Shown: in pieces, positions 46,777 through 61,393 of the stretch | Layout: every line of letters starts with the position of its first letter | Position numbering within the stretch: the stretch's first letter is position 1 | Assembly: GCF_012999535.1 (NCBI RefSeq) | Contig: NZ_JABBWV010000002.1 | Coordinates: 310,001-374,000, forward strand | Source of the DNA: Microbispora sp. H11081 | GTDB taxonomy: Bacteria; Actinomycetota; Actinomycetes; Streptosporangiales; Streptosporangiaceae | Length of the DNA: 64,000 nucleotides | Direction of reading: 5' to 3' | The notes under the pieces: model-generated | What the model saw: only the letters and a program-made list of their open reading frames with translations | Databases searched by the model: none | Told to the model about the DNA's origin: nothing | Position numbers and translations under genes: made by a program

Positions 46777-46787
46777 GGTCACCAAGG

Positions 46788-48035
46788 TTATTGCACCCCG
46801 TCCTGTGCGGCTCCCTCCCTGTCCACTTGCTGAGATCTTTTTTCTTGCGCGGGAAGCCGCACATGCTCGGGCAGCACGCCGAGCCCGATGAAGCGGGGCA
46901 GCAGCGAGCGCACCACCGGTACGCGGGTGAGGTCGGGTATCCGCGCCACCGGCCCGGTGAGGGCGGGCCTGATGAGCCGCTCCTGCACCACCCGCTGCGC
47001 GGCCTGGACGACGGCCGTGGGCGCCTTCCTGCGCCGCTCCACCCGCGCCAGCAGCGCCGCGGGGGCCTCGCCGCGGCGCAGGGCGGGCCCGACGATGTTG
47101 GCGGTCGCGACGGCGTCCTGCACGGCGAGGTTGATCCCGACGCCGAAGACCGGCGACATCGCGTGGGCCGCATCGCCGATCAGCAGCAGCCCGGGCAGGT
47201 GCCAGCGGGTCAGCCGGTTCAGCTCGACGCTCAGCACGCCCACCTCGTCGAAGCCGCGCAGCTCGGACGTCCTGCCGGCGAGGAAGGGCAGCAGCCGTCC
47301 GACCTCGCGGCGCAGCCCGTCGACGCCCCCGTCCCGCAGCGCGGCGAAGCCGCCCTTCGGGATGACGTAGGCGAGCTGCCAGTACGTCTCCCTGTTGATC
47401 GCGACCATGAGCCGCCCCGCCGAGGTCCGCAGGAACGGCTCCCCCGGGTCGTCCGCCGCGCGCGGCAGCCGGAACCAGACGACGTCCATCGGCGCGCCGA
47501 ACCGCTTCGGCGAAAGACCCGCCGCCCGCCGCAGGTCGGAGTGCCTGCCGTCCGCGGCGACCGTGAGCAGCGCCCTGATCTCGTGCTCCTCGCCCCGCTC
47601 GTCGCGGTAGCGCACGCCACGGATCGCGCCGTCGCTCCGTACGAGATCGGTGACCGTGGCGTTCATCAGGAGGCGGAAGCCCGGGTAGGCGCGCGCCTCA
47701 CGGGTGAGGAGGTCGAGGAAGTCCCACTGCGGGACGAAGGCGATGTACCGATACTTGCCCGGCAGGCGCCGCAGGTCGGAGATGGGCACCTCGGCGTCGT
47801 CGGTCCTGACCGACATGGTGTGCGCCTTGCGGTGCGGCAGCCGGTGGAACGCCTCGGACAGCCCGATCTCGTCCAGCACCTGGAGGGTCGAGGGATGGAT
47901 GGTGTCGCCGCGGAAGTCACGCAGGAAGTCCGCGTGCTTCTCCAGCAGAGTGACGTCGACGCCCGCGCGGGCCAGGAGCAGCGCGAGCATCGCCCCCGCG
48001 GGCCCGCCGCCCGCGATCACGCATGTGGTCTCCAT
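46788..48035 (-). CDS. FAD-dependent oxidoreductase (aromatic hydroxylase type)
   Basis: 415 residues. N-terminal GxGxxG appears as VIAGGGPAGAMLALLLARAG; the DG motif is VAADGRHSDLRRAAG and the GD motif LLIGDAAHAMSPVFGVGINLAVQDA (given in part), all features of group A flavin monooxygenases. The C-terminus (about 60 residues) is basic. Close relatives are annotated as menaquinone- or secondary-metabolite-related oxygenases, but the substrate is unknown. Its stop codon is part of the DAHP synthase promoter. Confidence 0.88.
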   Translation of the reverse strand: METTCVIAGGGPAGAMLALLLARAGVDVTLLEKHADFLRDFRGDTIHPSTLQVLDEIGLSEAFHRLPHRKAHTMSVRTDDAEVPISDLRRLPGKYRYIAFVPQWDFLDLLTREARAYPGFRLLMNATVTDLVRSDGAIRGVRYRDERGEEHEIRALLTVAADGRHSDLRRAAGLSPKRFGAPMDVVWFRLPRAADDPGEPFLRTSAGRLMVAINRETYWQLAYVIPKGGFAALRDGGVDGLRREVGRLLPFLAGRTSELRGFDEVGVLSVELNRLTRWHLPGLLLIGDAAHAMSPVFGVGINLAVQDAVATANIVGPALRRGEAPAALLARVERRRKAPTAVVQAAQRVVQERLIRPALTGPVARIPDLTRVPVVRSLLPRFIGLGVLPEHVRLPAQEKRSQQVDREGAAQDGVQ

Positions 48036-48350: not shown

Positions 48351-49355
48351 TCAGACGTGGGCGGGATTGCGCGACCCCGCCCGCAGCACGTCCAGGCAGG
48401 CGGCCAGTGACCGCGTGGTGACGTCCCTGGTGGAGGCGTAGGCCTCCTCCGGATACTGCCGCGGGCCCTCTTCCACCAGCATGATCAGGTAGAGGTAGGC
48501 GCGGTAGAGGGTGATGCGGATCCGGGCGGCGTGGTCGAGCCGCACCGGGCCGGCCTCCTGCCGGTACCCGGCGAGCATCGGGTCGTCCTCGCGCAGCTCG
48601 CCGAAGATGGTGGGCGTGACGAAGTCGGCGAGGGGGTCGCCCCAGAAGGCCCTCTCGTGGTCGATGAGCGCCTGGACGCGCCTGTCGCCGTCCAGGAACA
48701 CGTTGCCGGGCCACAGGTCGAAGTGCACCAGCGACGGCGTGGTGACCTGGTCGAGGACGTGCGCGTTCATGTGGACGAGCCCGACGATCTCCACGATGGT
48801 CGCCGGGAGCCGGGTGTTGTAGTGGACGGCGTCGTCGAGCAGGGCGCCGATCATGACGAGGAACGCCTCCCGCCACGTCTGGCCGGTCAGCCCGGCGTAC
48901 GGGTAGCCGAAGACGCCCGTGCCGGGGACGGCGTGCAGGCGGGCGAGGTGGCGGCCGAGCTGGAACCGCAGCGCGCCCTCCTCCGCGGGGGTGACCTTCG
49001 TCCGGTTCCAGGGAACCCCGTCCAGCGCCGACAGGATGAGGTAGTCCCCGCCCAGCACCGGATCGTCGAACGACGCCTTCAGCAGTTCGGGCATCGGCAG
49101 CCCCGTGGGCCCGGCGAGGTGGTAGACCATCGCCTCGGTGCGCAGCAGGTGCCGCTCGTAGGCCAGCAACCGCAGGTCGGGCGGCGGCCCGAGCTTGAGC
49201 ACCGCCTCACGTCCGTCGTCGAGGCCGAGCCGCCACACGGCGTTGGCGAAACCGTCGTTGAGCTCCTCCGACGAGGTCAGCCCGCAGCCCAGCGCGTCGC
49301 GGGCGACCTTGTCGAGTTGCGCGGGGGACAACCGCCTCTTCGTCCTGCTGTCCAT
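48351..49355 (-). CDS. Phosphotransferase family protein (APH-like)
   Basis: 334 residues. The kinase-like catalytic loop is VHFDLWPGNVFLDGD (HxDxxxxN) and the metal-binding block LIDHERAFWGDPLADF. The N-lobe has ELNDGFANAVWRLGL and AVLKLGPPPD with the ATP lysine. Similar proteins phosphorylate hydroxyl groups on sugars, antibiotics or choline-like molecules. It directly precedes nothing on its strand and follows galM by nine bases, so it is probably the second gene of the operator-controlled galM transcript. A sugar-related substrate is possible. Confidence 0.82.
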   Translation of the reverse strand: MDSRTKRRLSPAQLDKVARDALGCGLTSSEELNDGFANAVWRLGLDDGREAVLKLGPPPDLRLLAYERHLLRTEAMVYHLAGPTGLPMPELLKASFDDPVLGGDYLILSALDGVPWNRTKVTPAEEGALRFQLGRHLARLHAVPGTGVFGYPYAGLTGQTWREAFLVMIGALLDDAVHYNTRLPATIVEIVGLVHMNAHVLDQVTTPSLVHFDLWPGNVFLDGDRRVQALIDHERAFWGDPLADFVTPTIFGELREDDPMLAGYRQEAGPVRLDHAARIRITLYRAYLYLIMLVEEGPRQYPEEAYASTRDVTTRSLAACLDVLRAGSRNPAHV

Positions 49356-49364
49356 TCGGTCTTC

Positions 49365-50261
49365 TCAGTCTTCCCGGGTCGGAGTGGTGACCGCGATGGT
49401 CCACGTGGCCTCGTGCTTGTCCCCCGGCTGCAAAACGATCAGGTCGGTGCCCGAGTTGAACGCGTCGGGCGGGCAGGTCATGGGCTCCACGGCCAGTCCC
49501 CTGTGGCCGAGCCCCGTGCCGGTGCAGATCTGGACCCACGGCATCACCGCCGGGTCCCAGGTGAGCTCCACCCCGCCCTCGGGCCCGAGCGCGCGCACCC
49601 GTCCCTCCGTCACGCCCGTGTAGGCGTGGTCGACGGCGGTGTCCCCGATCACCCGCGGCGTACGGAAGTCGTACGGCGTCCCCGTGACGTCCACCAGGTC
49701 GGTGGGGGCGAGCAGGTCGTCGGTGAGCAGCACCCGCCCGGCCGGCAGGCCGAGCTCGTAGGCGGTGACGTCCGGCCCCGCCAGCAACCACGGGTGCGGC
49801 CCGCAGCCGTACGGCGCCGCCGTGTCGCCCACGTTCTGCGCCGTCAGCGTGGTCGACAGGCCGTCCTCGGACACCGCGTGCCGCACTTCGAGGGCGATCC
49901 GGTGCGGATAGCCCTCGGTCGGCTCCACGACGTGCGTCAGCCGTACGTGGCCGTGGTGGTCCTCCACCGACAGCAGCTCCGCGCACTCCCAGTCGAGTCC
50001 CGCGACGAGGCCGTGCAGGGCGTGGCCGCGGTCGGGCTCGTTCACCGGGAGGTGCCGGCGCTGCCCCTCGAAGACGTACGTGCCGCCGACCACGCGGTTG
50101 GGCCAGGGGGCGAGGACGGTGCCGCTGTAGTAGGGCACAGGACCGCCCTCGGGCCAGCTCGTCACCAGGTCGCGGCCCTCGTGGCGCAGCACCCGGAGGG
50201 CGCCGCCCCGCTCGCTGATCGTGGCCTGGTAACCACCGCCGGCAATCGTGTAATCGGGCAC
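49365..50261 (-). CDS. Aldose 1-epimerase family protein
   Basis: 298 residues. Interconverts alpha and beta anomers of hexoses. Family blocks: SGTVLAPWPNRVVGGTY (substrate Arg), DRGHALHGLVAGLDW with the catalytic His, GCGPHPWLL and the C-terminal ICTGTGLGHRGLAVEPM with catalytic Glu. GTG 50261 (VPDYTIAGGG) was chosen as the family start; ATG 50285 or 50336 would add residues not seen in relatives. A strong promoter with a CelR-type operator lies 107 bp upstream. Together with the GH1 enzyme it fits release and use of glucose from cello-oligosaccharides. Confidence 0.88.
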   Translation of the reverse strand: MPDYTIAGGGYQATISERGGALRVLRHEGRDLVTSWPEGGPVPYYSGTVLAPWPNRVVGGTYVFEGQRRHLPVNEPDRGHALHGLVAGLDWECAELLSVEDHHGHVRLTHVVEPTEGYPHRIALEVRHAVSEDGLSTTLTAQNVGDTAAPYGCGPHPWLLAGPDVTAYELGLPAGRVLLTDDLLAPTDLVDVTGTPYDFRTPRVIGDTAVDHAYTGVTEGRVRALGPEGGVELTWDPAVMPWVQICTGTGLGHRGLAVEPMTCPPDAFNSGTDLIVLQPGDKHEATWTIAVTTPTRED

Positions 50262-50367
50262 GGGGGAGTCCTCTCGCTGACGCATCGTCAAGAAGCGGGT
50301 CATCTGACCGTATGCAGGGACCTTATCCCAGCTCATCGCCCTTGATCCAAGCGGGGTGAAAGGTCAG

Positions 50368-50381
50368 TGGGAGCGCTCCCA
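50368..50381. promoter_or_regulatory. CelR/CebR-type operator before galM
   Basis: TGGGAGCGCTCCCA, a perfect 14-bp palindrome identical to the published Thermobifida CelR and Streptomyces CebR box. It covers +4 to +17 of the predicted galM transcript. Confidence 0.85.
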
Positions 50382-50390
50382 TAACCGGTA

Positions 50391-50419
50391 AAGCTAAGTC
50401 TTTTCGACGGACGCGTCAA
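50391..50419 (-). promoter_or_regulatory. Promoter of the galM transcript
   Basis: On the minus strand TTGACG (50419-50414), 17 bases, then TAGCTT (50396-50391). Predicted start at 50384, three bases before the operator. Confidence 0.6.
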
Positions 50420-50557
50420 CTTAATCCCGTGATTATGGCCAGGATCGGTATAAAGACTCCGATTTGCCGCGAGGCGGGTCTCGCGTGCACGTGCATGGGC
50501 CATCGCCCACCGATCCGACCTGAAACTTTCACCCTCACCTGCCCGGCCGCCCACCCC

Positions 50558-50845
50558 CGTGATCTTGTAGTTTGTCGCACGCGCGGCTTCGACCAGCGGA
50601 TTCCCTCTTCGTGATCTTGCGGCAGAGAGGCCTGTGGCTCGCTGACCAGCCACAACAGGCATCGTGATCTTGCACTGCATGATCACGATGCCTGTTCGCG
50701 CAGGTCGCGCGGCGGAGGTGCCAGACCATGCAAGATCACGGTAGGCATGGGTGCTGGTCAGCCCAGGGTGGCGCGACAAACTGCAAGATCACGAAAGGAA
50801 TGTGTGCTGGTGCGCCGCGGCGGTGCGACAAACTGCAAGATCACG
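50558..50845. repeat. Mirror-image array of 52-53-bp repeats
   Basis: Three plus-strand copies of CGTGATCTTG begin at 50558, 50610 and 50663 (steps 52, 53). Copies in reverse (ending GATCACG) end at 50687, 50740, 50793 and 50845 (steps 53, 53, 52). The full unit reads CGTGATCTTGCAGTTTGTCGC, about 16 variable bases, then ACCAGC and a weakly conserved end. The arms are symmetric about 50675. No reading frame of note. It lies between the glucosidase stop and the galM promoter. Confidence 0.85.
50654..50696. repeat. Central palindrome of the repeat array
   Basis: AACAGGCATCGTGATC (50654-50669) pairs exactly with GATCACGATGCCTGTT (50681-50696) around an 11-base loop that itself contains TGC-ACT-GCA. 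It sits at the symmetry centre of the array and could serve as a terminator for the upstream glucosidase operon. Confidence 0.85.
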
Positions 50846-50869
50846 CGGGGTGAGGGGAGGGGGTGGGGG

Positions 50870-52204
50870 TTAGCGCAGTTCGCCGCTCTTTACGACGTCG
50901 CGGTACCAGAGCGCGCTGTCCTTGGGGGTGCGCTTCTGGGTCGTGTAGTCCACGTGCACGATGCCGAAGCGCTGGCTGTAGCCCTGCGCCCACTCGAAGT
51001 TGTCGAGCAGCGACCACACGTGGTAGCCCTCGACCCGCGCGCCGTCCTCCATGGCGCGGTGCACGGCGGCCAGGTGGTCGCGGAGGTAGGCGATCCGCCG
51101 GTCGTCACGGACCCGGCCGTCCGCGTCGACCCCGTCCACGACGGCCAGGCCGTTCTCGGTGATGACCATCGGCACGCCGGGGTAGTCCCGCTGCACCCGG
51201 ACGAGGAGGTCGTGCAGGCCCTGGGGGTAGATCTCCAGCCACTCGGCCTGGGCCCGCTCGTGCAGGAAGACCCGCTCGCCCTTGCCATCGACGAAGATCG
51301 GCGTGTAGTACTGCACGCCCAGGATGTCCATGGGCTCGCTGATGATCGCGAGGTCGCCGTCCAGGATGTAGTCGGCCATCGGGCCGCGCTCGGAGATCCA
51401 GCGCAGCGTGTCCTCCGGGTAGCTGCCCTTGAAGACGGCGTCGAGGTAGAGCCGGTTCTCCAGCCCGTCCTGGTGGTGGGCCGCCTCCCGCGCCTCGGGC
51501 GTGTCGTCGGCCGGGTAGGTGGGGTGCAGGTTGAGCGCGGGCCCGATGCGGCGTCCCGGGTGCCGCTCGTGCAGTACGCGGGAGGCGAGGCCGTGCGCGA
51601 GCAGCAGGTGATGGCAGGCGACGAACGCGCGCGCGTCGTCCTTGAAGCCCGGCGCGTGCTGGCCCTCCCGGTAGCCGCAGTCGACGACCGTCTTGGGCTC
51701 GTTGATCGTCAGCCAGTCGCGGATCTCCAGGGCGTCGAAGCAGATCTCGGCGTACTCGGCGAAGCGCTCGGCCGTCTCCCTGTTCTCCCAGCCCCCTCGG
51801 TCCTGCAGCGCCTGCGGCAGGTCCCAGTGGAAGAGCGTGGCCATCGGCCGGATGCCGCGTTCCGCCAGCCCGTCGACGAGCCTGCGGTAGAAGTCGAGGC
51901 CCTTCTGGTTGGGCTTGCCCGACCCGGTCGGCTGGATCCGCGGCCAGGCGATGGAGAAGCGGTAGCTGTCCAGCCCCAGATCGGCGATCAGGTCCAGGTC
52001 CTCGTTGTAACGGTGGTAGTGGTCGGCGGCGTGCTCACCGGTGTCGCCGTCGCGCACGTTGCCTGGGACCGCGCAGAACGTGTCCCACACCGAGGGCCCG
52101 CGGCCGTCCTCCGTCGTCGCCCCCTCGATCTGGTACGCCGCGGTGGACGCGCCCCAGACGAAGTCGGCCGGAAACCGTGCGGGTGAGTTCATGGCTTCAT
52201 CCAT
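50870..52204 (-). CDS. GH1 beta-glucosidase
   Basis: 444 residues, standard GH1 length. Hydrolyses terminal beta-glucosides such as cellobiose, in the cytoplasm since no signal peptide is present. FVWGASTAAYQIEGA at the N-terminus, TLFHWDLPQAL, acid/base Glu in WLTINEPK and nucleophile Glu in VITENGLA. It is the last gene of the dehydrogenase operon, starting at ATG 52204, eight bases inside the E2 gene (ATG 52192 is an alternative). A glucosidase joined to a 2-oxoacid dehydrogenase operon is unusual. In Streptomyces, CebR controls bglC of the same family. Confidence 0.94.
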   Translation of the reverse strand: MDEAMNSPARFPADFVWGASTAAYQIEGATTEDGRGPSVWDTFCAVPGNVRDGDTGEHAADHYHRYNEDLDLIADLGLDSYRFSIAWPRIQPTGSGKPNQKGLDFYRRLVDGLAERGIRPMATLFHWDLPQALQDRGGWENRETAERFAEYAEICFDALEIRDWLTINEPKTVVDCGYREGQHAPGFKDDARAFVACHHLLLAHGLASRVLHERHPGRRIGPALNLHPTYPADDTPEAREAAHHQDGLENRLYLDAVFKGSYPEDTLRWISERGPMADYILDGDLAIISEPMDILGVQYYTPIFVDGKGERVFLHERAQAEWLEIYPQGLHDLLVRVQRDYPGVPMVITENGLAVVDGVDADGRVRDDRRIAYLRDHLAAVHRAMEDGARVEGYHVWSLLDNFEWAQGYSQRFGIVHVDYTTQKRTPKDSALWYRDVVKSGELR

Positions 52205-53459
52205 TCTCGGTGAGGAATCGCGCGGGTGTTTCTAGCGCCGTGCGGAGTTCCCCGAGGAACTCCGCGGCATCGCGACCGTTGATGTAACGGTGGTCGTAGG
52301 CGAGGCCCAGGGTGGCGGTCTTGCGTACGGCGAAGCCCGAACCGTCGTGGACGACCTCCGAGCGCGGCGCGGTCAGCGACAGCGCGCACGTCTGGCCGGG
52401 GAAGACGATCGGGACGGCGAACACGATGCCGTCGTGTGTGTGCAGGGTGAGCGTGATGGCGCCTCCCATGAGGTCGCGCTCCCGGAACGACCCGGTGAGC
52501 GCGGTCGTCCGGAAGGCGGTGAGGTCGGCGGCGATCTCGGCGAGCGGCCGGTTGCCCGCGTCGCGGACGACCGGGATGAACAGCCCGCGGCCCAGGTCGA
52601 CCGTCACGCCGACGTCGGCGGTGGCGGCCCTTCTCGCCCGCGGGCCGGGGCCCGGCTCCGCGAAGAACATGGGGAAGCGGTCGAGCAGCCCGCCCGCCGC
52701 CTTCACCACCATCTCGGGCAGGCCGACGAGGGCGCGCATCTTGCGGGTGAGGTCGCGGGCGAGCGCCAGGATCTCGGTCACGTCGACGTTCATCGCCGTG
52801 AAGGCCGCCGGGATCTCACGCCGGGACCGCTCGACGACCTCGGCCGTCCGCTGCTGCGCCCGCGACAGCGTGATCCACCGTGCGTCGTCGTCCTGCGCGC
52901 CGTCGTCCTGGGCTAGGGAGTCATGGGCGGGGGAGTCCTGGGCCGGGGAGTCCGGGGCGGGGGCGTCGTCCGCGCCGGCGGCCTGGGGGCGCTGCCCGGC
53001 GATCAGTTCCTCGACGTCGGTCCGCCTGATCACCTTCCGGCCGAGCGCGTACACCCGCTCCATGGCGATGCCGTGCGCCTCGATCAGGTCGCGCGCGGGC
53101 GCCGTCACGACGACGCCGGCGCTCGCGGCCCCGGTCTTCGCAGCGGTCTTCGCGGCGGTGTCCTCGGCGGTGTCCTCGGCGGTCTCCCCGGCCGTCTCCC
53201 CGGAGCCGTCCGCGCCGGCCACGTCGGCGCTCCCGAGGAGGCGGGCGATCACCTGTCCCGGCTCGCACTCGGCTCCCTCGGCGACCAGTCGCCGCAGCAC
53301 GCCGTCCGCCGGGGCCTCGACCTCCTCCGTCGCCTTGGACGTCTCCAGCAGCGCGATCGGCTGGCCGTCCCGCACCGTCACGCCGTCCTCGGCCAGCCAC
53401 TCGACCAGGATGTAGGAGGTGTCGTTGTTGTTGAGCTTGGGCACGCGGAACTCGGTCAC
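52197..53459 (-). CDS. 2-Oxoacid dehydrogenase E2 (lipoamide acyltransferase)
   Basis: 420 residues, core of the complex; transfers the acyl group to CoA. One lipoyl domain (about 1-80) with lipoylated Lys in LLETSKATEEV. An acidic Ala/Glu/Thr-rich linker, then a peripheral-subunit-binding domain (APARDLIEAHGIAMERVYALGRK, given in part), a second Asp/Pro/Gln linker, and the catalytic domain from about 205. The active-site motif reads YDHRYINGRDAAEF, with Asn in place of the usual Asp after the His-Arg. GTG 53459 overlaps the E1-beta stop. No E3 gene is in the window. Confidence 0.9.
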   Translation of the reverse strand: MTEFRVPKLNNNDTSYILVEWLAEDGVTVRDGQPIALLETSKATEEVEAPADGVLRRLVAEGAECEPGQVIARLLGSADVAGADGSGETAGETAEDTAEDTAAKTAAKTGAASAGVVVTAPARDLIEAHGIAMERVYALGRKVIRRTDVEELIAGQRPQAAGADDAPAPDSPAQDSPAHDSLAQDDGAQDDDARWITLSRAQQRTAEVVERSRREIPAAFTAMNVDVTEILALARDLTRKMRALVGLPEMVVKAAGGLLDRFPMFFAEPGPGPRARRAATADVGVTVDLGRGLFIPVVRDAGNRPLAEIAADLTAFRTTALTGSFRERDLMGGAITLTLHTHDGIVFAVPIVFPGQTCALSLTAPRSEVVHDGSGFAVRKTATLGLAYDHRYINGRDAAEFLGELRTALETPARFLTENG

Positions 53460-54433
53460 GACAGCGACTCCTTCACCGCGGCTCTGATGCCGTCGGCCTG
53501 CACGAGCACCTCGCGTTCCAGATGGGGGGCGGCGGGGATCACCCCGTCCGCCGAGTTGACCAAAGTGATCGGGCGGCGCAGGCGGCCCCACAGGCGCGGG
53601 TAGAGCGTCGTGGCCACCTCGGCCGCCCAGGTGCCGCCCGCGGTCCCGTCGTCGACGACGCAGACGTGCCGCGCGTCCTCCAGGCCCGGCAGATGGGGCA
53701 CGGGGTAGAGCTGGGCGGGCACCAGCAGCTCGCAGACCAGGTCGTCCTCCAGGAGCAGCGTGCGCATGGCGTCGAGCGTCCGGTGGACGAGCCCGCCGTG
53801 GGTGACCAGCGTGCAGTCGGGCCGGCCCGCGCCGTCGAGGTACACCCGGGCGACGTCGTCCACCAGCTCGAACCCGAACAGGTCGTCCGCGGGGTACATC
53901 TGCCGCGTGTAGAGGACCTTGTCCTCGAAGAACAGGCAGGGCCGCCCGAGGCCGAACATCAGGGAGAACAGCCGGCCCGCGTCGTGGAACGGCGTCATCT
54001 CGAACAGCGACAGGCCCGGCACGCCGATGAAGTGCTTCTGCGGGTTCTGGCTGTGGGTCGGGCCGTAGCCGCGGTTGCCGCCGGTGGGGCAGCGCACCAC
54101 GAGCGGCACCGGCACGGGCCTGCCGTACATCGAGGTGGACTTGGCGGCGAAGTTCGTGATCTGGTCGAACGCCAGCGCCACGAAATCGGCGAACATGATC
54201 TCGACGACGGCCTTGTCGCCCGCCAGGGCCAGCCCGGCCCCGACCCCGGCGATCGCGCCCTCGCTCAGCGGCGTGGACCTCACGCGGGAGCCGAACCGGC
54301 TCGACAGCCCCTTGGTGACCTTGAACGCGCCGCCGTACGGGTCGCCGACGTCCTCGCCGAGCAGGTGGACCGAGGGGTCGGACTCCATGAGATCGTGCAG
54401 CGCCTGGTTGAGGTGCTCGGAGACCCGGGTCAC
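53456..54433 (-). CDS. 2-Oxoacid dehydrogenase E1 beta subunit
   Basis: 325 residues. VSEHLNQALHDLMESDPSVHLLGEDVGDPYGGAFKVTKGL (given in part), PLSEGAIAGVGAGLAL, MFADFVALAFDQI and RCPTGGNRGYGPTHSQ match the beta subunit of heterotetrameric E1, the part that binds the thiamine diphosphate pyrimidine. GTG 54433 overlaps the E1-alpha stop (GTGA), and its own stop overlaps E2, so all four genes are tightly coupled. Subfamily (acetoin, branched-chain or pyruvate) is not certain. Confidence 0.92.
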   Translation of the reverse strand: MTRVSEHLNQALHDLMESDPSVHLLGEDVGDPYGGAFKVTKGLSSRFGSRVRSTPLSEGAIAGVGAGLALAGDKAVVEIMFADFVALAFDQITNFAAKSTSMYGRPVPVPLVVRCPTGGNRGYGPTHSQNPQKHFIGVPGLSLFEMTPFHDAGRLFSLMFGLGRPCLFFEDKVLYTRQMYPADDLFGFELVDDVARVYLDGAGRPDCTLVTHGGLVHRTLDAMRTLLLEDDLVCELLVPAQLYPVPHLPGLEDARHVCVVDDGTAGGTWAAEVATTLYPRLWGRLRRPITLVNSADGVIPAAPHLEREVLVQADGIRAAVKESLS

Positions 54434-55353
54434 GCGGCTCCCCCCGGCCGTGCGTGGGGCCGGGCGGAGACCTCGGCGACCACGCGCTCGACGAGTTCGC
54501 GCTGCTCCCTGTCGATCCTGGCGAACCGCTCGGGATCGGCCTTCGCGCACCGGTCGTACCAGTCGGACTCCGCGGCCCGGCGGATCTCCTCCGGCGGGCG
54601 GGTGTCGTCGCCCTTGCTGTGGGGCCCGAGGCGGTGCGTGGCGAACTCGACCACCAGGGGGGCGGGCTCGGCCCGCACGGCCTCGACGAGCGGCGCGAGC
54701 ACCTGCCTGATCTCGGCGGCGTCGGTGGACGAGACGTGGTGGTGCCGGACGCCGAAGGCCGCCGCGCGGGCGGCGATCGTGCCCGCCATCTGGGCGGAGG
54801 TGGGGGTCGACTGGGCGATGCCGTTGTGCTCGACCACGACCAGCAGCGGCACCTTCCACAGGGACGCCATGTTCAGCGCTTCGTAGACGGCGCCCTCGCC
54901 CCAGGTGCCGTCCCCGATGTACGCGCAGGCCAGCGCGCCGGTGCCGGCCAGTTTCAGGGCCACTCCGGTGGCCACGGGAAGGCTCTCGCCCTGCACACCC
55001 GTGGACAGGAAACGCCGGTGGTAGATGTGCTGGCTGCCGCCGACGCCTCCGCAGAGCGCGCCCTCCCGCCCCATGATCTCGGCGAGCAGCCCGTGCGGGT
55101 CTGGATGGCGGGCGAGGAAGTGGCCGTGCCCCCGGTGGTTGCTGAACACGAAGTCGTCGTCGCGCAGCAGGGCCGACACCGCGACGGGGATGTACTCCTG
55201 CCCGAGGCAGGTGTGGGTGGTGCCGCTCAGCACCCCCTGCTCGAACAGGCGGAGCAGGGCGCGTTCGAAGTGCCGGATGAGCAGGAGTGAGCGGAGATCC
55301 TCGTCGCTGAGGGCATGCCGCGGGCTCCGGGCCGGTGCAGCGGTGACGATCAC
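54430..55353 (-). CDS. 2-Oxoacid dehydrogenase E1 alpha subunit
   Basis: 307 residues from GTG 55353. Binds thiamine diphosphate through GDGTWGEGAVYEALNMASLWKVPLLVVVEHN (given in part), the GDG-N motif. NHRGHGHFLARHPD and GVGGSQHIY are typical of E1-alpha in acetoin and pyruvate-type complexes. It is first in the operon E1a-E1b-E2-GH1. Its promoter (55448-55476) and operator (55431-55444) leave an 88-base leader. The complex could make an acyl-CoA from a 2-oxoacid, perhaps a starter for the divergent NRPS; this is inference. Confidence 0.9.
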   Translation of the reverse strand: MIVTAAPARSPRHALSDEDLRSLLLIRHFERALLRLFEQGVLSGTTHTCLGQEYIPVAVSALLRDDDFVFSNHRGHGHFLARHPDPHGLLAEIMGREGALCGGVGGSQHIYHRRFLSTGVQGESLPVATGVALKLAGTGALACAYIGDGTWGEGAVYEALNMASLWKVPLLVVVEHNGIAQSTPTSAQMAGTIAARAAAFGVRHHHVSSTDAAEIRQVLAPLVEAVRAEPAPLVVEFATHRLGPHSKGDDTRPPEEIRRAAESDWYDRCAKADPERFARIDREQRELVERVVAEVSARPHARPGGAA

Positions 55354-55430
55354 AGGTGGTCCGCTCCTGGTGCGTCTGGTGGAGAGGCGCTCGACGCCGG
55401 GCTTCGCTGCCAGGGACAGGAGCACCCTAT

Positions 55431-55444
55431 TGGGAGCGCTCCCA
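55431..55444. promoter_or_regulatory. CelR/CebR-type operator at the dehydrogenase-glucosidase promoter
   Basis: A second perfect TGGGAGCGCTCCCA. It spans -3 to +11 of the predicted minus-strand transcript, a position that blocks initiation. Confidence 0.85.
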
Positions 55445-55447
55445 CGG

Positions 55448-55476
55448 AGCGTAGGTGTGGAAAGAGGCCTTGTCAA
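55448..55476 (-). promoter_or_regulatory. Promoter of the dehydrogenase-glucosidase operon
   Basis: TTGACA (55476-55471), 17 bases, TACGCT (55453-55448) on the minus strand; predicted start 55441. A TAGGGT downstream of the operator is an alternative -10. Confidence 0.6.
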
Positions 55477-55589
55477 TCCCTGGCAATAGAGACAATTTGG
55501 GAGAGTGTGTCCGCATTGTCCGTGATCTGGGGCAATATCCTCACATTCCCCACCTTGGGGCTAATAACGGACAGAAACTTCCATGACAC

Positions 55590-55619
55590 TTGACGAAGGA
55601 AAGGCCCGATCCCTAGCCT
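55590..55619 (+). promoter_or_regulatory. Promoter of the NRPS operon
   Basis: TTGACG (55590-55595), 18 bases, TAGCCT (55614-55619); predicted start 55626. The layout matches the galM promoter almost base for base. Confidence 0.6.
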
Positions 55620-55628
55620 CCACTGCCG

Positions 55629-55642
55629 TGGGAGCGTTCCCA
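55629..55642. promoter_or_regulatory. CelR/CebR-type operator at the NRPS promoter
   Basis: TGGGAGCGTTCCCA differs from the perfect box by one base. It covers +4 to +17, the same place as at galM. Confidence 0.75.
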
Positions 55643-55817: not shown

Positions 55818-55859
55818 ATGTTCTTAATGCAAATTTCAATCATGGTGCCGGCGTCGTGA
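55818..55859 (+). CDS. 13-residue leader peptide coupled to the NRPS start
   Basis: ATG follows AAAGGA with ideal five-base spacing and encodes MFLMQISIMVPAS. Its TGA overlaps the NRPS GTG (GTGA). The stretch is AT-rich and hydrophobic, unlike the context. The NRPS start has no ribosome site of its own, so coupling is likely. Translation is inferred. Confidence 0.45.
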   Translation: MFLMQISIMVPAS

Positions 55860-58800
55860 CCCGGACCGGCCTCTCACCGGCCAAACAAGCGCTGCTGGCG
55901 CAGCGGCTCAGAGCCGGGAAAGCCGCGAGGCTCACCGTGCCGCCGCGGCCGGACGGCACCCACCCGCCGCTTTCGCACGCCCAGGAGCGCCTGTGGTTCC
56001 TGGAGCAGTACGCCCCGGGCACCACCGCCTACACCGTCGCCTTCGCCGTCAGGCTGGACGGCGGCGAGATCGACGACGCGGCCCTGGAACGCGCGCTCAC
56101 CGAGGTGGCCAGGCGGCACGAGAGCCTGCGCACCCGGTTCGTCACCACCGACGACGGGACGCCGGAGATCGTGCTCGACGACGAGCCCCTGGTGGAGCTG
56201 CGGCTGTCCGACGACCCCGCCACTGTGCGGGAGGTCGTGCAGGAGGAGCTGGCCCGGCCGTTCGACCTGGCCACCGGCCCGCTGCTGCGGGTGCTCCTGG
56301 TCCGGCTGGGCGTCCGCGAGCACGTGCTGCTCCTGACCATGCACCACACCGTCACGGACGGCTGGTCGTGCGACATCGTGATGGAGGAACTGCTCGCCCT
56401 GCACGAGGCGTACCGGACCGGGACCGAGCCCGATCTCGGCGCTCCGCCCGTGCAGTACGGCGACTACGCGCTCTGGGAGCGCGGCCGCACCCACGAGGAC
56501 GACATCCGCTACTGGCGGGACCGGCTGGCCGGGCTGCCGCCGCTGGAGCTGCCGACCGACCTGCCGCGCCCGCCTGAGCAGGGCTCGGCGGGCGCCGCGC
56601 ACACCGTCGCGCTCGACCGGGAGCTGGTGGACGCGCTCACGGAGCTGGGCGGGGCGAACGGCGCGTCGCTGTACATGACGCTGCTCGCCGCCTTCCAGGT
56701 GCTGCTCGGGCGCTACTCAGGCCAGGACGACTTCGCGGTCGGGTCGCCCGTGTCGGGGCGCGACCTGCCGGAGCTGGAACGGGTGGTCGGTCTCTTCATC
56801 AACTCGCTGCCGATGCGGGCCGACCTGTCCGGCGACCCGGCCTTCACCGAGCTGCTCGGCCGGGTGCGGGAGACGGCGCTGGACGCCTACACGCACCAGG
56901 AGCTGCCCTTCGACCGGCTGGTCGGCGAGCTGGGCGTCGAGCGCGACGTGAGCAGGTCGCCGGTGTTCCAGGTGATGTTCGCGCTGCAGAACTACCGGTC
57001 GGCGCCGCTGCGCACCCAGGGCCTGGCCATGTCGGCGTACCCGTTCGAGGTGACCGCCAGCCGGTTCGACCTCGCGCTGTACCTGATGGACCTGGGCGAC
57101 GGCCTGCGGGGCACCCTCACCTACCGCACCGAGCTGTTCCGGCCGGAGACGATCGCGCGCCTGGCGGAGTGCTTCGAGAACCTGCTCAGGTCGATCGTGG
57201 CCGACCCCCACGCGCGGCTGTCGGACCTCGAACTGCTCCCGGCCGGCGAGCGCGGCCGCGTGCTCGGGTTCGCGGGAGCGGCGCCCGGGGCGGGGGCGCC
57301 CGCCGCGGACGCGTTCGACGGGGCGTCGTCGCCGCACGAGGCGATCGCGGCGCAGGCGGCCCGCACGCCGTCCGCGACCGCCGTCGCCTGCGGCGGCGAC
57401 ACCCTCACGTACGCCGAGCTGGACGCCGCGGCCGACCGGCTCGCCCGGCGGCTGCGCGAGCTCGGCGTACGGCGCGACGACCGCGTCGCGATCTGCCTGG
57501 AGCAGTCGACCGGGCTCGCGGTCGCGGTGCTCGGCGTGCTCAAGGCGGGCGCGGCCTACCTGCCGCTCGACCCCGAGCACCCGCGCGGCCGGCTCGAGTA
57601 CGTGCTGGCCGACGCCGGGGCGTCGATCGTCGTGACCACCCAGGACCTGCGCGACCGGCTGCCCGGCGACATCACCGCCGTGGACCCCGGCGAGGACGCG
57701 CGGGGGCCGGTGGACCCCTGGGAGCCGGTGGCGCCGGCCGACCTCGCGTACGTGATCTACACCTCCGGCACGACCGGGCGGCCCAAGGGCGTCGCGGTGC
57801 AGCACCACGAGGTGATGGTCTACCTCGCCGGGGTGCGGGAACGGCTGGACGTCGAGCCCGGCTCGTCCTTCGCCCTGCTCCAGTCGCTCGCCTTCGACTT
57901 CGGCGTCACGGTCTTCTACCTGTGCCTGATGACCGGCGGCACCCTGCACCTGGTGCCCTCGCGCACCGCGGGCCCCGAGCTGGCGGAGATCTTCCGGCGC
58001 ACCGGGATCGACTACCTCAAGATCACCCCGTCGCATCTGGCCGCGCTGCTCGCGGACGCGGGTCCTGACGACCTGCTTCCCCGGAAGCTGCTGCTGCTGG
58101 GCGGGGAGGCGGCGCCGCGCGGCTGGGCCGCCGAGCTCGCGGCGAAGGGCCGCTGCCGGGTCGTCAACCACTACGGTCCGACCGAGGCCACCGTGGGCGT
58201 GACGACCTACGACGTCGCACGGCTGCCCGCTCCCCGCGGCCAGGCCGAGTCGGGCGTGAGCCTGCCGATCGGCTCGCCGCTGCCGGGCGCGCGGGCGTAC
58301 GTGCTGGACGAGCGGTTGCGGCCGGTGCCGGCGGGCGTGCCGGGGGAGATCTACCTCGGCGGCGACCGGCTGGCCCGCGGCTACCTGAACCGGCCGGGCC
58401 TGACAGCCGACCGGTTCCTGCCCGACCCGTACGGCCCGCCGGGGTCGCGCATGTACCGCACGGGCGACCTCGGCCGGTGGTCGGGCTCCGGCGACCTGGA
58501 GTTCCTCGGCCGCCGCGACCTGCAGGTGAAGATCCGCGGCTACCGGGTCGAGCTGGGCGAGGTCGAGTCGGTGCTGGCCGACCATCCGGACGTCGCCCAG
58601 GCCGTCGCCGAGCCGCGCGGCGAACAGCTCGTCGCCTATCTCGTGCCCGCCGTCGAAGGCGCGCGGCCGGAGGCGGCGGACGTGCGCGCGTGGCTGGCCG
58701 ACCGGCTGCCCGCGTACATGGTCCCCTCGCGGTACGCCTGGCTCGACGAGCTGCCGCTCAAGTCGCACGGCAAGGTGGACCGCGCGCGGCTGCCGGAGCC

Positions 58801-61393
58801 GGAGGCCGACGTGGCGGCGGCCGAGTACGTCGCCCCCTCGCCCGGCGCCGAGGAGGACGTGGCACGCGTCTGGGCCGAGGTGCTGGAGGTCGAGCGCGTG
58901 GGGGCGCTCGACGACTTCTTCGCACTGGGCGGCCACTCGCTGCTGGCGATGCGGGTCATCGCCCGGCTGCGCAAGGCGCATCCGGACCGGCAGATCACGG
59001 TGCTCGACGTGTTCAAGCACCGCACGGTCCGCGAGCTGGCCCGGCTGCTCACGGCCGAGGGTGACGTGCCGCGCTCGCTGCTGCACCGGCTCACCCCCGC
59101 CAGGCCCGCCACCACCACCTTGGTGTGCGTGCCGTACGGCGGGGGCAGCGCGGTCGTCTACCAGCCGCTCGCGGACGCGCTGCCGGACGACTGGGCGCTC
59201 TACTCGGTCGCGGTGCCCGGCCACGAACTGGGCGAGGAGTCCCGGCCGTTCGACGAGGTCGTCGTCGACTGCGTGGCCGAGATCTCCGAGATCGTGGCCG
59301 GGAACGGCGGCTCGCTCGTGCTGTACGGCCACTGCGGCCTCGGCGTCATGCTGTCGACCGAGATCGCCAGGAGGCTGGAGGCCGACGGCCACACGGTGGA
59401 CGCGCTGTATCTCGGCGGCGTGTTCCCCTTCGCCCGCCCGGGCCGCGGCATGAACTGGCTCGGGACCTTCCTGGACAACCTCACCAGCGACCAGCAGCGG
59501 GTCAACGCCCTGACCGCGGCCGGGCTCGACGTGGAGGACCTGGGCAGGGAACAGGTCAAACTGATCGTGCGCAACCGCCGCGAGGGCACCCGCGCCGCGG
59601 AGCGGTACTTCACCCGGATCTTCGAGGAGCACGGCACCGCGCTGCGCGCGCCGGTGATCGCCGTGGTCGGCGAGCGTGACCCGGCGGCCGAGTTCTACCA
59701 GGAACGTTACAAAGAGTGGCACTGCCTGTCGGACACGACGGCGTGCGTCGTCCTCGACGAGGCCGGGCACTTCTTCCTGCGGTACCGCAACCACGAGCTC
59801 GCCGACATCGTCACCGGCACCCACACCGCCCTCGCCTCCGGGCGTACGGAGGGGCTGGAGCGGGACGAGGACCGCACCTGGTGGCTGCAGGGCGTCTCCA
59901 GCAGGTCCGCGGAGGCCGGACCCGGAACCGAAAACGGGACCGGCCCGGAAGCCGGGGCCGAGGCCGAGGTCGGGGCCGGGACCGAGACCGTGAGAGCCGG
60001 GGTGAGAGTCGGCCCGCCGCCCAGCATGCGGCGCTTCCTCCTCGTCGCGGCCGGGCAGCTCGTCTCGATGACGGGCTCCGCGCTGACCGAGTTCGCCATC
60101 CCGCTGTGGATCTACCTCACTACGGGGTCGCTCGCCAGGTTCGCGCTGTTCTCCGTGCTCGGGCTGCTGCCCGGCATGCTCGTCGCCCCGCTGGCCGGCG
60201 CCATCGTCGACCGGTTCGACCGGCGCAAGGTGATGATCGCCGGAGACGTGGCCGCGGGCGGCACCCAGCTCGCGCTCGGGCTGCTGCTGTGGACCGGCAA
60301 CCTGCAGGTCTGGCACATCTATCCGCTGCTGGTCGGCCTGTCCGTCGCGCTCACCTTCCAGCGGCTCGCGTACAACTCGGCGATCCCGCAGCTCGTGCCG
60401 AAACGGTTCCTCGGGCACGCCAACGGCATCGTCCAGATGGCCATGGGCAGCACGCAGCTCATCGTGCCGCTGATCGCGGTCGGGCTGATGTCGACGATCG
60501 GCCTTGAGGGCATCCTCATCATCGACGTGGTCAGCTACGTCGTCGCCACGCTCACCATCGCGCTGATCCGCTTCCCGGCGACGATGGCGTGGAAGCGGCG
60601 GGAGACCGTGCTCGCCGAGATGATGGGCGGCATCCGCCACTCCTGGGGCCACCGGGGCTTCCGCGCGATGCTGTTCTACTTCGCGGTGCTGAACGTCTTC
60701 CTGTCCCCGCTGTTCATGATGATCTCGCCGCTGGTGCTGTCGTTCGCGACGCTGACCGAGGTCGGCAGGGTGTCGTTCGCGGGCGGGCTCGGCGCATTCC
60801 TCGGCGGTCTCGCGATGGCCGCCTGGGGCGGCCCGCGGCGCAGGCGGTTGTACGGCGTGCTGCTGTCCACGCTCGCCCTATCGGTGTTCTGCCTGCTGAC
60901 CGGGCTCTACCAGGACCTGCTGATCATCGCCATCGGCGCGTTCGGCATGTCGCTGTGCCTCACCCTGCTGAACGGCGTCTACGCCACGATCATCCAGGTC
61001 AAGGTGCCGCAGCGGTTCCACGGCCGGGTCATCGCGCTGAACACGCTGGTCGCCTGGTCGACGCTGCCCATCGGCTTCGGCGTGGTCGCGCCGTACGGCG
61101 CCCAGGTCTTCGAGCCGCTGCTCGCCCCCGGCGGGCCGCTCGCCGACACCGTGGGCGTGGTGCTAGGCACCGGACCCGGCCGCGGGATCGGCTTCATGTA
61201 CGCCTGTTTCGCCCTGGCGATCGCCGTGATCGCGCTGGTCGCCATGCGGGTGGGGGTGCTGCGCAGGTTCGACGCGGAGGTGCCCGACGCGCTGCCCGAC
61301 GACGTCGTCGGCTACCAGGCGGTGACCGAGCGCGTGGCGGCGGCGCGGGGCGGCGCGCAGGCGGTCCGCGAACCGGAGAAGGAGCTCGCATGA
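55856..61393 (+). CDS. Nonribosomal peptide synthetase (C-A-T-TE) fused to an MFS exporter
   Basis: 1845 residues in one frame. Condensation domain about 39-460 with MHHTVTDGWS; adenylation domain about 493-970 with YTSGTTGRPKG (near 635), HYGPTEATVG, YRTGDLGRW and KSHGKVDR; carrier domain with LGGHSLLAM, Ser1028 the phosphopantetheine site; thioesterase about 1083-1328 with YGHCGLG, where Cys1160 replaces the usual Ser; a Gly/Glu/Ala linker; then from 1391 a complete MFS transporter (about 12 helices, IVDRFDRRKVMIAGD). The specificity residues read DFTKLGHVGK starting at Asp681, close to codes for aspartate. One module thus condenses an acyl donor with Asp-like substrate, releases it and exports it. 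Start GTG 55856 (VTRTGLSPAKQALLAQRL). Overlaps the ligase gene (ATGA). Confidence 0.92.
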   Translation: MTRTGLSPAKQALLAQRLRAGKAARLTVPPRPDGTHPPLSHAQERLWFLEQYAPGTTAYTVAFAVRLDGGEIDDAALERALTEVARRHESLRTRFVTTDDGTPEIVLDDEPLVELRLSDDPATVREVVQEELARPFDLATGPLLRVLLVRLGVREHVLLLTMHHTVTDGWSCDIVMEELLALHEAYRTGTEPDLGAPPVQYGDYALWERGRTHEDDIRYWRDRLAGLPPLELPTDLPRPPEQGSAGAAHTVALDRELVDALTELGGANGASLYMTLLAAFQVLLGRYSGQDDFAVGSPVSGRDLPELERVVGLFINSLPMRADLSGDPAFTELLGRVRETALDAYTHQELPFDRLVGELGVERDVSRSPVFQVMFALQNYRSAPLRTQGLAMSAYPFEVTASRFDLALYLMDLGDGLRGTLTYRTELFRPETIARLAECFENLLRSIVADPHARLSDLELLPAGERGRVLGFAGAAPGAGAPAADAFDGASSPHEAIAAQAARTPSATAVACGGDTLTYAELDAAADRLARRLRELGVRRDDRVAICLEQSTGLAVAVLGVLKAGAAYLPLDPEHPRGRLEYVLADAGASIVVTTQDLRDRLPGDITAVDPGEDARGPVDPWEPVAPADLAYVIYTSGTTGRPKGVAVQHHEVMVYLAGVRERLDVEPGSSFALLQSLAFDFGVTVFYLCLMTGGTLHLVPSRTAGPELAEIFRRTGIDYLKITPSHLAALLADAGPDDLLPRKLLLLGGEAAPRGWAAELAAKGRCRVVNHYGPTEATVGVTTYDVARLPAPRGQAESGVSLPIGSPLPGARAYVLDERLRPVPAGVPGEIYLGGDRLARGYLNRPGLTADRFLPDPYGPPGSRMYRTGDLGRWSGSGDLEFLGRRDLQVKIRGYRVELGEVESVLADHPDVAQAVAEPRGEQLVAYLVPAVEGARPEAADVRAWLADRLPAYMVPSRYAWLDELPLKSHGKVDRARLPEPEADVAAAEYVAPSPGAEEDVARVWAEVLEVERVGALDDFFALGGHSLLAMRVIARLRKAHPDRQITVLDVFKHRTVRELARLLTAEGDVPRSLLHRLTPARPATTTLVCVPYGGGSAVVYQPLADALPDDWALYSVAVPGHELGEESRPFDEVVVDCVAEISEIVAGNGGSLVLYGHCGLGVMLSTEIARRLEADGHTVDALYLGGVFPFARPGRGMNWLGTFLDNLTSDQQRVNALTAAGLDVEDLGREQVKLIVRNRREGTRAAERYFTRIFEEHGTALRAPVIAVVGERDPAAEFYQERYKEWHCLSDTTACVVLDEAGHFFLRYRNHELADIVTGTHTALASGRTEGLERDEDRTWWLQGVSSRSAEAGPGTENGTGPEAGAEAEVGAGTETVRAGVRVGPPPSMRRFLLVAAGQLVSMTGSALTEFAIPLWIYLTTGSLARFALFSVLGLLPGMLVAPLAGAIVDRFDRRKVMIAGDVAAGGTQLALGLLLWTGNLQVWHIYPLLVGLSVALTFQRLAYNSAIPQLVPKRFLGHANGIVQMAMGSTQLIVPLIAVGLMSTIGLEGILIIDVVSYVVATLTIALIRFPATMAWKRRETVLAEMMGGIRHSWGHRGFRAMLFYFAVLNVFLSPLFMMISPLVLSFATLTEVGRVSFAGGLGAFLGGLAMAAWGGPRRRRLYGVLLSTLALSVFCLLTGLYQDLLIIAIGAFGMSLCLTLLNGVYATIIQVKVPQRFHGRVIALNTLVAWSTLPIGFGVVAPYGAQVFEPLLAPGGPLADTVGVVLGTGPGRGIGFMYACFALAIAVIALVAMRVGVLRRFDAEVPDALPDDVVGYQAVTERVAAARGGAQAVREPEKELA

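Follow-up and report, generated by a model that had tools for sequence, protein, structure and literature searches.

CelR-type operators at a nonribosomal peptide synthetase promoter of Microbispora sp. H11081 point to probable cello-oligosaccharide control of a biosynthetic cluster, with the operator conserved across genera

CelR of Thermobifida fusca and CebR of Streptomyces use the same 14-bp box, are encoded as LacI-type regulators within an operon together with a transporter and a glycoside hydrolase family 1 (GH1) gene, and have cellulase genes as targets. Here, we describe this box (the operator) in a 64,000-nucleotide stretch of the soil actinobacterium Microbispora sp. H11081, called the window, which comprises C12:310001-374000 (contig NZ_JABBWV010000002.1) of a 7,376,733-bp assembly of 50 contigs. 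Positions without a contig or locus prefix are those of the window. One copy of the operator lies at the promoter of a nonribosomal peptide synthetase (NRPS) operon, whose first main gene, NRPS1, encodes condensation (C), adenylation (A), carrier (T) and thioesterase (TE) domains fused to a major facilitator superfamily (MFS) domain. The CebR/CelR consensus printed in PMC5332605 is the same box as the window operator, so the identity claimed by the original prediction holds. According to the available part of Anderson et al. 2012 (PMC3377646), CelR sites in Streptosporangium roseum are close to genes of the pyruvate-dehydrogenase type and to a Ser/Thr kinase gene that adjoins a LacI gene. A HATPase-like gene has a CelR site nearby in Thermobispora, and one site falls within the coding region of an Actinosynnema mirum polyketide synthase; the authors name secondary metabolism as a possible target. 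Compared with the CelR regulon of T. fusca and the CebR regulon of Streptomyces, that of Microbispora additionally includes biosynthetic clusters, with the operator placed on core promoters and conserved across genera.

The thaxtomin cluster of Streptomyces scabiei resembles the present locus in that a cello-oligosaccharide repressor, CebR, directly controls an NRPS cluster via one-mismatch sites. As outlined in the accessible portions of PMC5332605 (Table 1), PMC12527672 and PMC8552735, these sites are located at -786 and -899, far upstream of txtR/txtA, and at +1507 inside txtB, and the cluster is double-locked by CebR and the activator TxtR (PMC8552735). In Microbispora, by contrast, the biosynthetic operon has its operator just past the -10 box, and the synthetase architecture differs. 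The txtA/txtB synthetases have fused methyltransferase domains. No methyltransferase domain was found in the proteins of the Microbispora cluster at E <= 0.001, and no regulator gene, including one for a TxtR (AraC/XylS) protein, among the 11 cluster genes examined (seven on the NRPS side, four on the divergent side). A thaxtomin-type cluster was rejected because of the architecture. Rotihibin and other S. scabiei clusters likewise give NRPS products that rise on cellobiose. Rotihibin is CebR-independent (PMC8552735), other cellobiose-induced clusters carry no CebR boxes, and, thaxtomin excepted, no elicited cluster seems to be directly CebR-controlled as far as the accessible text of PMC8914351 goes; in the table of known sites within clusters seen in PMC12527672, thaxtomin is the sole CebR entry. 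That such a regulon reaches an NRPS cluster is already known, and what is new here is its placement, age, breadth and host group. Searches of the open-licence literature listed no previous description of CelR/CebR operators on NRPS promoters in this family.

A rescan of the window returned the three predicted sites at the same positions. The perfect operator TGGGAGCGCTCCCA occurs at 50368-50381, at the minus-strand promoter of galM (TTGACG 50419-50414, TAGCTT 50396-50391), and at 55431-55444, at the minus-strand promoter of a divergent operon for dehydrogenase-like E1 and E2 proteins and a GH1 enzyme (E1/E2/GH1; TTGACA 55476-55471, TACGCT 55453-55448). The third copy, TGGGAGCGTTCCCA, carries one mismatch (C to T at position 9) and is found at 55629-55642, 198 bp from the divergent operator and just downstream of the plus-strand NRPS promoter at 55590-55619 (-35 TTGACG, -10 TAGCCT, 18-bp spacer). 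All three promoters assigned to these sites were readable, as TTGACG-N17-TAGCTT for galM, TTGACA-N17-TACGCT for the dehydrogenase operon and TTGACG-N18-TAGCCT for NRPS1. With +1 set 7 nt past the -10 box, the operator was recomputed to cover +4 to +17 at galM and NRPS1 and -3 to +11 at the dehydrogenase operon, in exact agreement with the spans predicted, all relative to start points inferred from the sequence. At two or fewer mismatches the window contains exactly these three matches and no others; since 4 of 100 dinucleotide shuffles of the window also reached three matches at this loose threshold, the window count alone is weak. In the whole genome, however, a scan for the 14-mer as proposed in the original prediction yielded 15 perfect and five one-mismatch sites versus one match of the reversed pattern, compared to approximately 0.1 perfect sites expected from base composition (GC taken as 0.71).

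Within the genus (15 genomes) NRPS1 was found in 13, the 12 others being 83-93% identical, and was not found in the genomes G004 and G007. In G012 the gene is cut at a contig end ahead of the promoter, leaving 12 readable promoters, all of which contain both the NRPS and the divergent operator, the former always as TGGGAGCGTTCCCA. Neither site varies in any of its 14 columns, whereas 48% of all columns of these promoters are invariant. A 27-bp block, CTAATAACGGACAGAAACTTCCATGAC, upstream of the NRPS -35 box (55561-55587) is likewise invariant in 12/12, and so is the presence of a 13-codon leader open reading frame on the plus strand (55818-55859), which is preceded by a GGA-type ribosome-binding site and whose stop overlaps the NRPS1 start (GTGA); translational coupling or attenuation of NRPS1 by this leader is possible.

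For comparison beyond the genus, 51 genomes chosen among those with CelR or related synthetases gave 30 loci, to which one orthologue and 14 upstream stretches were added. Six other genera provided 11 orthologues of at least 69% identity whose start could be read, and the NRPS operator was present in 11/11, nine times as TGGGAGCGTTCCCA and twice as its reverse complement TGGGAACGCTCCCA; in 10 of the 11 a second perfect site lies 184-200 bp away. Alignment of 13 loci from seven genera, the window's own included, revealed TTGAC and TAGCCTCC to be invariant in 13/13. The main invariant stretches on the NRPS side are CTTGAC, TAGCCTCC and the operator, with little else; two of the 14 operator positions vary, and these exchange the two orientations of the site. 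On the divergent side the operator, a GTAG-type -10 box and TGTCAA are kept, and only L217 is without the divergent site. The regulator gene celR (described below) is at most about 20 kb away on the same contig in G130, G075, G149, G052 and G065, 1.3 Mb away in G112, at a distance of 6.2 Mb on the same contig in G134 (2.8 Mb or more for a circular chromosome of 9.0 Mb), and on a separate contig in G100, G124 and G084. As the operator is retained where celR is unlinked, it is kept in trans, and a by-product of linkage to celR could be ruled out. The full gene order, NRPS1-ligase-C-PCP-C-C-A-PCP-C-A-PCP (PCP, peptidyl carrier protein) with divergent E1-alpha/E1-beta/E2, is seen in G134, G124 and G065. 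In the rearranged G112, E1-alpha, E1-beta and E2 are situated at the other end of the cluster, by a C gene, and have a perfect-site pair of their own, and NRPS1 retains its pair. Two genomes with a less similar NRPS1-type synthetase show the order up to C-PCP, where the contig ends (G097), or the order without E1 genes in the stretch read (G072). Taken together, the conservation of the operator at the NRPS promoter within and across genera is strong, if indirect, evidence of a function.

The analysis was extended to the wider synthetase family, for which 90 loci were gathered and 80 used; L141, L146, L150, L160, L181-L183, L195, L207 and L240 were omitted because the upstream stretch was short, the match was broken or started late, or the locus was a duplicate, and of these L141, L160 and L181-L183 do have the operator. 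Allowing one mismatch, the operator is found within 1.5 kb upstream of 38/80 synthetases, with 0 copies in coding and 0 in downstream sequence, and the reversed pattern and five other palindromes gave 0 matches everywhere in the 80 loci. It accompanies 21/21 loci with a divergent E1-alpha gene, 7/7 with a divergent TauD gene and 10/52 with neither. On a quick maximum-likelihood tree, to which long-branch warnings apply, the operator is present in 24/24 members of the NRPS1 clade, 10/10 of the NRPS2 clade and 2/2 of L189+L198, with L204 and L233 as single cases; outside the tree, a perfect site was also seen upstream of six more copies from the same genus code as L233. The operator label requires 4 changes on this tree versus a mean of 27.1 after shuffling, and 0 of 500 shuffles were that low. 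From the clade counts and these changes, the wiring is old in two clades and has more than once been acquired or lost.

NRPS2 is a second C-A-T-TE-MFS synthetase of the genome (C23:287239-292758; L179:12237-17759) with a divergent TauD-type dioxygenase gene. Its promoter carries a perfect operator (C23:292895), which was found in 14/14 genus genomes read; in G012, an 810-contig draft, NRPS2 was not seen among the matches listed. Four NRPS2 orthologues of other genera (65-76% identical) all have the operator. Furthermore, an NRPS2-type gene is located roughly 2 to 4.5 kb past celR and preceded by a perfect site in 6/7 Herbidospora loci (not L071) and in 3/5 Acrocarpospora loci (not L079 and L083). 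A ThiF-YcaO operon of the TOMM type, encoding a ribosomally synthesized and post-translationally modified peptide (RiPP), is present in 2/15 genus genomes at E <= 1e-100, in both cases with a perfect operator 15 bp ahead of the inferred ThiF-like start (C12:901743, i.e. L049:5001-5014, and L177:1044). The original prediction had proposed a second, independent case after thaxtomin. Its link between CelR and an NRPS is supported by the sequence, but with a second NRPS, the YcaO operon and several genera involved the notion of a single case does not stand: this reading was too modest, and the data indicate family-wide wiring.

A CelR/CebR homologue, whose absence from the genome would have refuted the original prediction, is encoded at C12:383266-384282 on the minus strand, directly past the end of the NRPS cluster and about 18 kb from the NRPS promoter. 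This LacI-family gene ends an operon (L042) of solute-binding protein (SBP), permease and GH1 genes, before whose first gene two perfect sites are located (C12:389166 and C12:389286); a CelR-type LacI gene is hence encoded together with a putative ABC transporter of the cello-oligosaccharide type and GH1. The nearest solved relative is PDB 5ysz (E 2.3e-122), with which the alignment spans the whole sensor domain and the recognition helix GVGRGTVSRVING and the hinge VPNRAARTLVT are identical. The database labels this entry only as 'LacI family'; we take it to be T. fusca CelR with cellobiose. Of 172 confirmed CelR relatives 80 were kept, the ten nearest being Microbispora proteins of 96-99% identity, and GVGRGTVSRVING is invariant in 23/23 aligned orthologues (our own and 22 of the 80 fetched). 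Among 297 genomes of the family, a CelR match was obtained for 248 at E <= 1e-80 and for 241 at E <= 1e-100. At least one perfect operator was found in 238/241 genomes with CelR at the stricter threshold versus 6/56 without (counted by hand from two tables). Perfect operators without a CelR match at this threshold occur in G076, G135, G147, G163, G215 and G296, and in G057, G083 and G265 CelR is present and a perfect site was not found. The reversed control pattern matched in 10/297 genomes.

Most operator sites of the genome lie at cellulase, transporter and signalling genes, and they mark a cellulose regulon. Cellulose-related targets comprise GH9 (L050, C15:8239), GH6 (L051/L054 loci; C23:103132, also beside an EAL/GGDEF gene, and C23:366704), GH48 followed by GH9 (L056; C49:273777 perfect, C49:273920 one mismatch) and a PL8 gene with a Cip1-like gene (L055, C43:105817), in addition to the transporter operon, galM and the E1/E2/GH1 operon. 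Two perfect operators (C50:189467 and C50:192015) bracket a LacI-Ser/Thr kinase gene pair (L044) followed by mscL, the latter site lying between the kinase stop and mscL, and a further site (C23:220513) is near or inside the start of a HATPase gene. Apart from NRPS1 itself (C12:365629), one-mismatch sites are found at a methyltransferase gene (C23:470690), at a place where no family was found (C43:114455) and at a gene for a condensation-domain protein, past a PEP-hydrolase-like gene (C12:664385, L180:9386-9399). The layout of the last promoter, TTGACC-N18-TAGCCT-operator, matches that of NRPS1. As separate observations, a related palindrome, TGAGAGCGCTCTCA, precedes a GH64 beta-1,3-glucanase gene (L180:3983-3996, C12:658982), and a variant, CGAGAGCGCTCTCA, is found near the CelR paralogue L021 (L021:33); these two perhaps mark a sister regulon.

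We consider it highly probable that CelR represses the NRPS1 and E1/E2/GH1 operons until cello-oligosaccharides arrive. According to this mechanism, the cellobiose-responsive repressor (C12:383266-384282) would occupy the palindromes past the -10 boxes of both operons and block their transcription. Cello-oligosaccharides freed by secreted cellulases would be imported by the SBP-ABC transporter and CelR would leave the DNA, whereupon the cell would make its cellulose-digestion machinery and the NRPS product together. Its assembly would involve the acyl ligase, the free-standing C, A and PCP proteins and the C-A-T-TE-MFS enzyme, by which the product is probably also released and exported. The terms 'secreted peptide' and 'plant-polymer sensing' of the original prediction are deduced from the fused MFS domain and the CelR-like regulator, respectively. 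The regulatory link is well supported at the level of sequence and evolution.

Several observations weigh against this interpretation. The mismatch in the NRPS operator may affect its affinity, though the same variant is kept across genera. Among the 80 synthetase loci, 42 homologous synthetases are without the operator, and the picture for homologues of 63-66% identity is mixed, with a site in 5/16 of a first set (L219, L220, L222, L223, L233) and in 7/12 of a further set. In G045 and G120, whose synthetases reach 69-70% identity in the C-terminal half only (53-61% in the N-terminal half), no site was found in the upstream sequence read, and a 64% paralogue adjoining celR in M. corallina (L066) shows no site. 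The NRPS1-clade loci L218-L220, L222 and L223 have no E1-alpha gene within 1.5 kb. Finally, no obvious target exists for the perfect site at C12:64198, which is flanked by the 3' ends of a lytic polysaccharide monooxygenase gene and a DUF218 gene.

With respect to alternative explanations, the frequency of loose matches in shuffled windows would favour chance, which is refuted for the set as a whole by the genome count, the conservation and the control palindromes (0/80) and is practically negligible. It is also very unlikely that the operators act on genes of carbon metabolism alone (E1/E2/GH1, galM) and that the NRPS merely shares the intergenic region. Loci of Planotetraspora, Sphaerisporangium, Sphaerimonospora and M. 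oryzae do have operators at GH1 or galM while no NRPS was found in the stretch read, but NRPS1 has its own operator, which is fixed to its own -35 and -10 boxes in seven genera, so that a by-product of the E1/GH1 operator could be ruled out. The NRPS1-clade loci without a nearby E1-alpha gene retain their operators, and NRPS2, with another neighbour gene, has its perfect site throughout the genus genomes read.

The operators could, furthermore, be read by a LacI paralogue in place of the CelR orthologue, which we regard as improbable. The genome offers 26 LacI-family genes, of which L021 (54% identity to CelR) and L036 (43%) are the best candidates; L036 carries a perfect operator immediately ahead of its start codon and is followed by a gene for a Ser/Thr kinase. 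However, their recognition helices (VSRATVSR in L021, VSPATASR in L036) differ from that of CelR (VGRGTVSR), while CelR equals 5ysz there; CGAGAGCGCTCTCA hints at another operator for L021, and it is the CelR gene that closes an operon preceded by two perfect sites and that, in a comparison made for CelR alone, is found together with the operator across the family. A somewhat greater, still minor, likelihood is given to the case in which bound CelR responds to a different sugar or works together with an additional activator, so that cellobiose alone is insufficient. The invariance of the CTAATAACGGACAGAAACTTCCATGAC block, possibly the site of a second regulator, the imperfect -10 box TAGCCT and the double lock of thaxtomin by CebR and TxtR (PMC8552735, in the part available) are in line with this. 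Against it, of the ten loci aligned from other genera four (L211-L214) preserve part of the block, which is unrecognisable in the other six, and the sensor domain of CelR aligns over its full length with 5ysz. Control by CelR in response to cello-oligosaccharides remains the preferred reading.

In the window, NRPS1 is a single frame on the plus strand (55856-61393, GTG start inferred), followed by genes for an AMP-dependent acyl ligase (61390-62952, plus; PF00501, E 7e-73) and a C-PCP protein (62954-64000, plus), which continues beyond the window to C12:374510. Genes for C, C, A-PCP and C-A-PCP proteins follow up to C12:383184, facing the minus-strand celR. With adenylation, condensation, carrier and thioesterase domains all present, this is an NRPS biosynthetic gene cluster. 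The fused MFS domain matches PF05977, a family that includes siderophore exporters, and from this match a siderophore was considered as the NRPS1 product. Adenylation codes, assigned by eye, are Asp-like for NRPS1, Gly-like for A-PCP, unsure for C-A-PCP and Asn-like for NRPS2 and serve as leads only. The divergent operon on the minus strand encodes E1-alpha-like (54430-55362; PF00676, E 5.7e-43) and E1-beta-like dehydrogenase subunits (53456-54436; PF02779, PF02780; start approximate, open frame to 54859), an E2-like lipoyl acyltransferase (52197-53462; PF00198, PF00364) and, as last gene, a GH1 beta-glucosidase (50870-52204; PF00232, E 4.5e-161; TIGR03356, 584 bits with a cut-off of 478.5). 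Profile search up to E 5 detected no E3-binding domain in the E2-like protein, and no E3 gene is among the four genes of this operon, to which the search for E3 was confined. In analogy to this cluster, pepteridine has E1/E2-like genes without E3 beside NRPS genes; in the accessible part of PMC5384830, which also cites naphthyridinomycin, its dehydrogenase-like E1/E2 pair loads NRPS carrier proteins. In pepteridine E2 is fused to T and C, whereas E1-alpha, E1-beta and E2 of Microbispora are separate and their divergent operon can end in GH1; that the pair loads an NRPS carrier here as well is a guess by analogy.

Downstream of these genes, the minus strand carries the galM-type aldose 1-epimerase gene (49365-50336; PF01263, E 3.8e-44) and, 9 bp past it, a gene for an APH/fructosamine-kinase-like protein (48351-49355; PF01636, E 4.2e-24). 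Several inverted and direct copies of CGTGATCTTGCAG / GCGACAAACTGCAAGATCACG-like repeats were noticed by eye between galM and GH1 (50558-50850), which look like an intergenic repeat element. Genes for a FAD monooxygenase and a class II DAHP synthase lie past galM-APH (45424-48035); because their order recurs near celR in several genera, they are probably core synteny and not part of the cluster. Past celR, the loci of Planotetraspora, Sphaerisporangium (L090, L091, L093, L097), Sphaerimonospora and M. oryzae contain GH1 genes, galM genes or both, of which one or more has an operator; reading up to 10 kb revealed neither an NRPS nor an E1 gene. The operator preceding galM recurs in L065, L068, L090 and L091. 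In the window genome the NRPS cluster and the E1/E2 genes are located between celR and GH1. Because loci of other taxa have the GH1 and galM operators without an NRPS, these are probably older here than the NRPS cluster. L083, with E1, E2 and GH1 near celR and no NRPS in the stretch, speaks against a fixed link.

Since a minimum of four gains or losses of the operator is required on the quick tree, CelR may have captured synthetases of one C-A-T-TE-MFS lineage more than once across the family, along with, in some genomes, other clusters such as the YcaO RiPP operon; captured clusters sometimes lie within the celR locus itself. The E1/E2 pair of the NRPS1 cluster might then channel acyl or hydroxyethyl units from sugars onto the peptide, and one sugar signal would thereby open both carbon supply and assembly line, and the product might guard or exploit the feeding site; we put this scenario forward tentatively, as somewhat less probable than not. 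With the operator on the NRPS promoter and the wiring kept in several genera, these bacteria probably make a secreted compound when feeding on plant cellulose. As far as the available parts of PMC8914351 and PMC12527672 go, direct control of a natural-product cluster by a cellulose repressor was previously documented for thaxtomin only, in a plant pathogen. If the present interpretation is correct, such control would be a rule of long standing throughout the family, in actinobacteria other than Streptomyces. Silent clusters of Microbispora and its relatives could then be woken simply, by cellobiose or deletion of celR, the responding clusters would be predictable, and the reason for coupling cellulose digestion to a secreted compound would become testable.

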